From NCBI GenBank assembly GCA_005223095.1, contig NJBQ01000009.1, forward strand, positions 1 through 41,357: DNA of 41,357 nt. The letters are read 5' to 3'. The notes under the pieces are model-generated. The model was not told where the DNA came from and ran no database searches. It worked only from the letters and a program-made list of their open reading frames with translations. This stretch comes from Candidatus Aerophobetes bacterium Ae_b3a (GTDB taxonomy: Bacteria > Aerophobota > Aerophobia > Aerophobales > AE-B3A). Of the stretch, positions 18,285 through 20,958 are shown one piece after another (position 1 is the first letter of the stretch; every line of letters begins with the position of its first letter). The position numbers were made by a program, and so were the translations under genes.

Positions 18285-18374
18285 TTATCGACAATTACGA
18301 TTTGGTTAAACCACAAAACTTTCCGACTAAATTTATTAGTACTGAGTCACTAATCATTGAAAGCGAGGGGATAT

Positions 18375-19718
18375 ATGAACCGATTAAAAGTAGGATTTAT
18401 TAGTTTGGGCGGATCAAACTTTGATACAGAATGTGCAAAATTAATTTTGGCTGAGTCTATAAGGAAAATAAAGACCATAGATAATGTTGAAATTATTCCC
18501 ATAGAGAAATTAGTCACTAATCTAGAGGAGGTAAATGAGGCAATAGTCAAATTTAAGAGCGTGAATGTTGATGTTTTAGTTGTCCAAAATGGCACGTTTG
18601 CTTGGGGAGGATTGATAGTGAACATTGCTCAGGAATTCAATGTTCCTATACTTCTTTGGGCCGTCCCGGAGCCATCCTTTGAAGGAGGCAAACCAAAACT
18701 AAACTCACTATGTGGAGTTAATTTAAATTCAAGTATTCTGACAAAGATGGGGAGAGAGATCAAGTTCATTTATGCTGAGTCTACCGAGGAAGAATTTCTC
18801 AAATCGATGAGTCGGTTTCTAAGGGTGGTAGAAACCATAAATCTTCTCAAGAAGACACGGGTAGGTTTAGTGGGATATAGAGTTCCAGGATTTTATAATG
18901 TGGTTTTCGATGAGTTGGCTTTAAGAAAAGTTTTTGGCATTGAAATCCATCATATTGATATAGCAGAAGTCTTTGCTAGGGCAGAGAAGGTTTCTAATAA
19001 AGAAATTAACTTGACTATAAAGGAGATTATAGAAAACTACGATGATATTACAGGAATTCCTAAAGTAAAACTAGAAAAGTTTGCTAAACTCTATCTTATT
19101 TTTAGAGAAATTATAGAAGAATATGCACTAAATGGCTTAGCAGTTAAGTGTTGGCCAGAGTTTATTAGTCTTTATGGGCTAGCAGCATGCTCCACTCTTT
19201 CCAAACTTACTAATGGTGGTTTTCCAACAAGCTGTGAGGCAGATGTAGAGGGAGCAGCAACTATGCTTATCCAAAAATATCTAACAGGAAAACCACCCTT
19301 TTTTGCAGATTTGATCTCTATAGATAAGGCAGAGAATACGGCTCTCCTATGGCATTGTGGTTCAGCCCCTTTTTCTTTAGCAGCTGATGATGCGAAAATA
19401 ATTTTGTCTGAGGGTATCGCCAGAGGTACAGGCCTGAATTCACGGTTTCCACTTAAGGAAGGAGCAGTAACTATTGCCAGGCTTGGAAATATAAGAAATA
19501 AGTATAGGATGTTTATTACCCAAGGCAAGGCAATCAAGACAGAGACTAATCTAGATGGGAATTCACAGGAAGTAAAACTGGAAAGTAAAGTTGAAGATGT
19601 TTTAAATACTATTATTTACGGAGGTTTCGAGCACCATTTCTCAGTAATTTACCAGGATATTCAGGAAGAACTTATAGAGTTATGTAAACTCTTAAAAATT
19701 GAGGTAGTTATAGTGTAA
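18375..19718 (+). CDS. L-fucose/L-arabinose isomerase-like protein
   Basis: The product is 447 residues from ATG 18375, which follows a GCGAGGGG site. The longer frame from TTG 18357 has no such site. The pattern matches the FucI/AraA-like superfamily: an N-terminal Rossmann-like half with VVQNGTFAWGG, a middle domain with VGLVGYRVPGFYN, and the C-terminal segments CWPEFISLYG, SCEADVEGAATM and LLWHCGSAPFSL. These carry candidate metal-binding Glu, Asp and His. The superfamily interconverts aldoses and ketoses, but many members are uncharacterised. It stands 174 bases after the peptidase gene and before a broken aldolase gene. Confidence 0.85.
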   Translation: MNRLKVGFISLGGSNFDTECAKLILAESIRKIKTIDNVEIIPIEKLVTNLEEVNEAIVKFKSVNVDVLVVQNGTFAWGGLIVNIAQEFNVPILLWAVPEPSFEGGKPKLNSLCGVNLNSSILTKMGREIKFIYAESTEEEFLKSMSRFLRVVETINLLKKTRVGLVGYRVPGFYNVVFDELALRKVFGIEIHHIDIAEVFARAEKVSNKEINLTIKEIIENYDDITGIPKVKLEKFAKLYLIFREIIEEYALNGLAVKCWPEFISLYGLAACSTLSKLTNGGFPTSCEADVEGAATMLIQKYLTGKPPFFADLISIDKAENTALLWHCGSAPFSLAADDAKIILSEGIARGTGLNSRFPLKEGAVTIARLGNIRNKYRMFITQGKAIKTETNLDGNSQEVKLESKVEDVLNTIIYGGFEHHFSVIYQDIQEELIELCKLLKIEVVIV

Positions 19719-19777: not shown

Positions 19778-19867
19778 ATGTTTTTAGAACCAAAAGGAAT
19801 TATACCTGCAATGGTAACACCGTTTGATGGTAAAGACCGAGTCAACGAAGCTGTACTGCGAAAGCTC
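19778..19867 (+). pseudogene. N-terminal stub of a dihydrodipicolinate synthase-family aldolase
   Basis: An intact AAGGAG and ATG start a frame reading FLEPKGIIPAMVTPFDGKD, the family's N-terminus (IxPAMVTPFDxxG). Homology stops near residue 30. From there the frame continues as a transposase C-terminus. The TIM barrel and Schiff-base lysine are missing. The family includes keto-deoxy-sugar-acid aldolases, which would fit the neighbourhood. The gene was broken by an IS200-type event. Confidence 0.75.
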
Positions 19868-20002
19868 TGGGCACGCGGATACTATATTGGAATATCAGGA
19901 GATAAAGTCACCGCAGATGAGATCAAAAAATATATAAGATATTACCAGCACCACACAGAGCAGTTAGAGCTCTGTGCTAAGGAAACGAAAGAACCCCACT
20001 AA
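19862..20002 (+). pseudogene. IS200/IS605 TnpA (Y1 transposase) C-terminal remnant
   Basis: Residues after the aldolase stub read KLWARGYYIGISGDKVTAD and continue EIKKYIRYYQ. This is the conserved end of TnpA proteins (W-A-R-G-Y-F-V...G...I-x-x-Y-I). The catalytic tyrosine and HUH motif are gone. It is fused in frame to the aldolase stub and ends at TAA 20000-20002, four bases from the element's end hairpin. Confidence 0.7.
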
Positions 20003-20003
20003 T

Positions 20004-20029
20004 AAGCCACCACCCTTGGGTGGTGGCTT
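20004..20029. repeat. Subterminal hairpin of the IS200-type remnant
   Basis: AAGCCACCACCC and GGGTGGTGGCTT form a perfect 12-base stem with a TT loop. This is the imperfect-end hairpin type that Y1 transposases recognise, placed directly after the tnpA stop. Confidence 0.75.
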
Positions 20030-20036
20030 GGTGACC

Positions 20037-20339
20037 ACTCTCTACGGTGCAAGTTACTTTATGATGGCTATTAATACAGAAAACTTCGCAGGAAGTGAGC
20101 AATTCAAACTCAAAGTCCATCGTTTAATTAGAGACTGTAAATCTTGTGTTCCTGTGGAAGGGTTTAAGCAAGTTCTGTTACCAGGAGAAATCGAATTTAA
20201 AGAAGCTCAAGAAAGAAAGAAAAAAGGTATTCCCGTAGAAGAGAAGCAATGGGAAGATATGGTAGAGATCTTGAAATCAAATGGAATAAAACTAAATTTC
20301 CGAAAAAATATTTTATCTTTATCTGGAGCACGTTTTTAA
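20037..20339 (+). pseudogene. C-terminal remnant of a malate/L-lactate dehydrogenase (Ldh_2 family)
   Basis: About 100 codons open after the IS hairpin read GASYFMMAINTENFAG, then KVHRLIRDCKSCVP, VEGFKQVLLPGE and EKQWEDMVEIL. This is the end of the Ldh_2 family (malate, ureidoglycolate and sulfolactate dehydrogenases). The NAD-binding and catalytic parts are missing. An apparent frame from 19974 overlaps it but crosses the IS end, so it is no genuine start. Confidence 0.75.
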
Positions 20340-20373: not shown

Positions 20374-20958
20374 GTGGGTAGATTGGAAGGCAAGGGTGTG
20401 GCCATGTTGGTCGCTCACGAGTTCGAAGATATTGAGGTTCTTTATCCATTACTACGACTGAGTGAAGAAGAAGCAAAAATCATCTTGGCTACTTTAGAAA
20501 CTGGTTTTCATCCCCGACCAGTTTTTCCAGGTAAACCTATTACTGGCCGATTTGGTTCCGTAATTCCTCCTATTGTAATGGAAGAGGGAGGGAGATTTAT
20601 ACACGTCACTATTGATAAGTTAAATGTCGATGAGGTTGATTGTATTATTATCCCTAGCGGATTCGCACCGGATCGCTTGCGGATTGACGAAAAAACTCTT
20701 AATATTGTCGGGGCGGCTCATGAACAGAAAAACATAATCGCCGCCATCTGTCATGGACCACAAGTTCTAATTTCAGCTAGGATAGTAAAAGGGAAAAGGG
20801 CTACCGGTTATGCTGCTGTAAAAGATGATCTGATCAATGCAGGTGCAGATTTTCACGATATTCCTGCTATTCGTGATGATAATATTATTACCGGCAGGGT
20901 CCCGGATGATCTTCCTGAGTTCTGTCAGGAAATCATAAAGGCTCTCTCAGAGAGCTAG
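20374..20958 (+). CDS. DJ-1/PfpI-family protein (type 1 glutamine amidotransferase-like)
   Basis: The 194-residue protein starts at GTG 20374 after AAGGA. The nucleophile elbow AAICHGPQVL places the catalytic Cys at 126 with His127 beside it, and VAHEFEDIEVLYPL near 13-26 supplies the conserved Glu. The family covers intracellular proteases, chaperones and glyoxalase/deglycase-like enzymes. The exact activity cannot be read. It follows the broken Ldh_2 remnant by 34 bases and might once have been in its operon. Confidence 0.87.
   Translation: MGRLEGKGVAMLVAHEFEDIEVLYPLLRLSEEEAKIILATLETGFHPRPVFPGKPITGRFGSVIPPIVMEEGGRFIHVTIDKLNVDEVDCIIIPSGFAPDRLRIDEKTLNIVGAAHEQKNIIAAICHGPQVLISARIVKGKRATGYAAVKDDLINAGADFHDIPAIRDDNIITGRVPDDLPEFCQEIIKALSES

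Follow-up and report, generated by a model that had tools for sequence, protein, structure and literature searches.

A remnant of an IS200-type element at the joint between two broken genes in Candidatus Aerophobetes bacterium Ae_b3a

Elements of the IS200 group carry tnpA only, and their transposase is recognised by the models NF033573 and PF01797. ISDra2, a functional reference for such elements, inserts 3' of TTGAT (PMC2806898). Degraded elements can also keep their hairpins; in the part of the Borrelia plasmid report drawn on here, stem-loops of a degenerate IS605/IS200 element lie beside host genes (PMC2775950). The locus described here is like those Borrelia remnants in having the hairpin of a degraded element near genes and differs from what that part of the report describes in that the remnant would mark a deletion joint in two protein genes, with both joints readable to the base. 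It shares a TnpA C-terminus and a right-end hairpin with the IS200 group and differs from it as a dead remnant. An intact copy elsewhere in the genome, on contig C103, belongs to the group by its NF033573 score. Hairpins lie near its ends, and its flank reads TTGAC, which is akin to but not the same as the TTGAT of ISDra2.

Layout of the locus

The window is the whole 41,357-nucleotide stretch that was analysed, contig C112 of the source MAG (2.37 Mb in 141 contigs, 87% complete, 3.7% contamination). The preliminary description reported an aldolase N-terminus, an in-frame TnpA C-terminus, a hairpin and an Ldh_2 C-terminus at 19778-20339. Pfam searches and matches to intact copies confirmed that all four are real and follow each other in that order on the + strand (Table 1). 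Their joints could be placed at base level, and the event behind them is of an ordinary kind. The remnant block is flanked by two intact genes, one of sugar-isomerase type (18357-19718) and one of PfpI type (20374-20958).

Table 1. Features of the remnant block, in positions of the window
Feature	Positions	Strand	Basis
DHDPS-superfamily (KDG-aldolase/NanA-type) aldolase 5' remnant, ~30 codons	19778..19866	+	Pfam DHDPS; start codon; AAAAAGGAG upstream
Left joint: putative deletion breakpoint, GAAAGCT in the window	19860..19866	+	Base-by-base comparison with C91 aldolase and C103 IS
IS200-type tnpA 3' remnant: C-terminal helix region and stop	19867..20002	+	Amino acid and DNA match to C103 copy
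IS200/IS605 right-end hairpin AAGCCACCACCC/TTGGGTGGTGGCTT	20004..20029	+	20-nt core shared by three copies; DNA fold
Right joint: inferred IS right terminus (..GGTGAC) against Ldh_2 coding sequence	20035..20036	+	Limits of C103 and G006 homology
Ldh_2 (malate/L-lactate/sulfolactate-type) dehydrogenase 3' remnant, ~100 codons	20036..20339	+	Pfam Ldh_2; G006:C46 match

The four pieces and their intact counterparts

The open reading frame at 19778-20002 encodes 74 amino acids, with the Shine-Dalgarno-like AAAAAGGAG ahead of its start. Residues 5-30 matched the Pfam DHDPS profile (positions 2-27, E 0.0055) and residues 27-54 matched Y1_Tnp (positions 93-119 of 121, E 0.0019). Both matches fell under the family cut-offs, as expected because the fragments are short. 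The isolated 30-aa aldolase piece matched the same DHDPS positions, 2-27, with an E-value of 0.0012, and its nearest intact N-terminus was MSFTARGIIPAMVTPFD...LRKL, from an aldolase paralogue on contig C91 of the same genome (G000:C91). Covering just positions 2-27 of 289, the piece lacks the full TIM barrel and the Schiff-base lysine, and on this coverage it is a pseudogene fragment.

The Ldh_2 C-terminus was unambiguous (Pfam E 1.5e-16, profile 263-332 of 333). An intact reference gene was supplied by G006, a Candidatus Aerophobetes MAG of the same family, which gave the sole match in an alignment search of the genome contigs with Ldh_2. The piece is 67% identical to that gene (G006:C46) in amino acids and 73% in DNA, with no frameshift. 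Being confined to profile positions 263-332, it is missing a complete dehydrogenase domain and is likewise a pseudogene fragment. The locus should be annotated as two pseudogenes, not as a fusion protein. The possibility that the fusion works as a protein was rejected, as neither the aldolase barrel nor the TnpA HUH motif is present.

The one intact copy of the element in the source genome carries a tnpA of 149 aa at C103:31498-31944 and no tnpB. Its product is a Y1 HUH transposase (PF01797 E 1.3e-41; NF033573 160 bits against a cut-off of 55), with the HUH motif seen as DHVHLF. The TnpA piece in the window is 88% identical to residues 101-149 of this protein (E 1e-24), and window positions 19860-20035 are 93% identical to the C103 IS in DNA (E 4e-69). 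The weak Y1_Tnp call is firm because an intact copy in the same genome matches at these levels. The window retains TnpA from about residue 101 to residue 149 together with the right end; the HUH motif and the left end are absent, and the fragment is therefore not capable of moving itself. By its content it is a dead remnant and not an element, and neither transposase nor enzyme function would be expected of it. A third copy, on contig C115, keeps the last 115 bp of the IS at 84% identity and is truncated at its 5' side. This tail (L009:1501-1615; G000:C115:6343-6457) has a perfect hairpin and lies between the genes for a sugar-binding protein and an ATPase in an apparently intact ABC transporter operon.

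The C103 copy has hairpins at both ends, with TTGAC before the left end and TTGAC closing the right end; as a single intact copy it provides no statistics on the target. The right ends read TTGAC in C103, TTGAT in C115 and GTGAC in the window. From these three copies we infer the IS termini and a TTGAC target, and a comparison with the ends of two distant tnpA relatives (L043 and L044) was of no help in fixing the termini. The right-end hairpin AAGCCACCACCC-TTGGGTGGTGGCTT is far more stable than shuffled sequence when folded as DNA (z -4.4). The 2.37 Mb genome contains three exact copies of the hairpin's 20-base core, all of them at the end of this tnpA or of a remnant of the gene; the core is identical in C103, C115 and the window, and the hairpin is perfect in the last two. 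No T-run was found 3' of the hairpin on the + strand, and a terminator role on that strand was rejected for this reason.

The two joints

At the left joint, the window tracks the C91 aldolase paralogue 5' of 19860 and the IS from 19867. Across the seven positions between, the C91 aldolase and the C103 IS both read GAAAACT in the same register, and the window reads GAAAGCT. Breakpoint pairs between these two sequences that share at least 7 nt make up about 0.05% of the random background. The comparison supports an illegitimate joint that connects the interiors of the aldolase and tnpA through 7 nt of microhomology, and the match suggests that one deletion took place between short direct repeats. 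That the deletion would have used this microhomology is deduced through C91, a paralogue of the lost aldolase, and with the window one base off GAAAACT. The aldolase and TnpA pieces are fused in frame because both parental proxies encode K-L at the joint.

At the right joint, homology to the C103 IS ends at 20035 and DNA homology to the G006 Ldh_2 begins at 20032. The two homologous stretches meet within 4 nt and have TGAC in common, the trace to be expected of an insertion 3' of TTGAC. From 20036 the window aligns codon for codon with G006; at the joint the window codons GTG ACC ACT CTC TAC stand opposite TTG AGC ACC CCC TAT. The shared TGAC and codons in line with the intact gene argue that the IS sat inside Ldh_2, after a presumed TTGAC, and they support reading this joint as a normal transposition end, at which the IS, with its right end intact, borders on the interior of Ldh_2. 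The preliminary description took the IS as the joint of two broken genes. The joint is real, but the IS would have lain inside one of the genes and not merely between them.

The window tnpA differs from the C103 copy at 12 of 147 positions, and outside the three joint codons five of the nine changes are silent. Since neither the tnpA piece nor the Ldh_2 piece contains a premature stop, and given this share of silent changes, the small numbers suggest that the deletion is recent relative to the divergence of the IS copies.

Origin of the joint and its context

We consider it very probable that an IS insertion in Ldh_2 and one later deletion through short direct repeats made the joint. The element, of IS200 type and ~580 bp long, with tnpA as its only gene and TTGAC as its right end, would have inserted 3' of TTGAC in the last third of Ldh_2, with an aldolase gene upstream of the interrupted gene at that time. 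A single deletion between GAAAACT in the aldolase and GAAAACT in tnpA would then have taken everything in the aldolase past codon ~30, the front of Ldh_2 and, from the IS, its left end and two thirds of tnpA, leaving a non-functional joint between the sugar-isomerase-type gene and the PfpI-type gene. The loss of the rest of the aldolase, most of the IS and the front of the dehydrogenase after an IS200/IS605 insertion had been proposed before, and it is supported here with both joints explained at base level. Nothing at the locus requires that the IS itself triggered the deletion.

In favour of this order of events are the intact IS in the same genome, the TGAC overlap, the TTGAC at the left flank of C103, the 7-nt match, the gene order at one distant locus (L109), a DHDPS gene ~4.5 kb from Ldh_2 in G006 and the lack of the joint in the other genomes searched from the phylum. 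Against it, the single-deletion step is built on proxies, the C91 paralogue and a 67% homologue, and the window is one base off at each joint, with GTGAC in place of TTGAC and GAAAGCT in place of GAAAACT. The required adjacency is also atypical: of about 30 distant Ldh_2 loci, one (L109) has DHDPS as the next gene upstream in the same orientation. On this observation, and with the two genes of G006 on opposite strands, adjacency before the deletion is to be regarded as possible. A nucleotide search of the locus found neither the joint nor an intact version, including an intact aldolase-Ldh_2 pair, in any of the 16 other genomes searched from the phylum. The same fused order in other genomes had been named in advance as an observation that would speak against the proposal.

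A history of at least two separate deletions or rearrangements, with insertion of the IS into Ldh_2, loss of its front and independent loss of the aldolase and Ldh_2 parts, would allow pieces to be joined from different places. The C115 remnant (115 bp, 84%), truncated at its 5' side without obvious loss of an adjoining gene, and the opposite strands of DHDPS and Ldh_2 in G006 fit such a course. It is improbable nonetheless, as one deletion, giving one illegitimate joint, suffices when the other joint is a legitimate IS end.

An assembly artefact, with the IS repeat bridging a chimeric join, deserves mention, as the MAG is fragmented (141 contigs) and incomplete, with the contamination given above, and contains another copy of the IS. 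The joint sits mid-contig, the left joint falls within tnpA at the 7-nt match and not at a repeat border, and the window and C103 copies differ at the 12 tnpA positions. The preliminary description had also named assembly breakpoints at the joints as contrary evidence; the lone repeat there is too diverged to hint at a misassembly, its longest exact match being 43 nt. We regard an artefact as very unlikely.

It is slightly less likely still that the 74-aa fusion or the hairpin is kept for some use such as transcript punctuation or attenuation, an idea suggested by the intact frame and by the perfect hairpins in the window and between two sugar ABC operon genes on C115, since the shared K-L codons account for the frame, the needs of a mobile element explain the hairpin's conservation, no T-run follows and none of the 16 other genomes keeps the joint. 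Equally doubtful is that the two 5'-truncated right-end tails, each a tnpA C-terminal piece with its hairpin, would have been kept as punctuation between sugar-operon genes.

On the favoured reading the locus is a clear case of IS insertion followed by microhomology deletion, with two genes of a catabolic cluster broken in an uncultured phylum. The scar is unusually readable, but the pseudogenisation is of a common type and leaves the understanding of IS biology unchanged.

The neighbouring genes resemble those for sulfoquinovose isomerase, IolB and an FGGY kinase of xylulokinase type. Judged from these neighbours, the earlier suggestion that the lost genes belonged to a sugar acid pathway is plausible. 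Pathway loss cannot be claimed, because the source genome retains relatives of both lost genes, an aldolase on C91 and a distant Ldh_2 on C67. The isomerase-type protein (18357-19718) scored 345 bits against the sulfoquinovose isomerase model NF048012, well under the curated cut-off of 700. The top NCBIfam match of the broken Ldh_2 piece was sulfolactate dehydrogenase; a divergent sulfosugar or sugar-acid pathway is possible.

Further traces of such elements were observed. In a genome of the same family, a decayed internal piece of the IS at G003:C16:10272-10388 (L046:1501-1594 region) covers TnpA residues 88-125 at 82% identity. An imperfect match to the hairpin stands solitary on C121 (L055:1501-1520; G000:C121:35106-35125), with no tnpA seen nearby; it resembles the IS right end and has GTCAAT and ATTGAC on its two sides, inverted relative to each other. 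Two loci in the source genome, L003 (G000:C59) and L004 (G000:C133), hold IS605-type elements of another family, each with tnpB and a 48-codon C-terminal piece of tnpA. The tnpA pieces are cut at about the same point in both copies, and these elements may rely on TnpA supplied from elsewhere.
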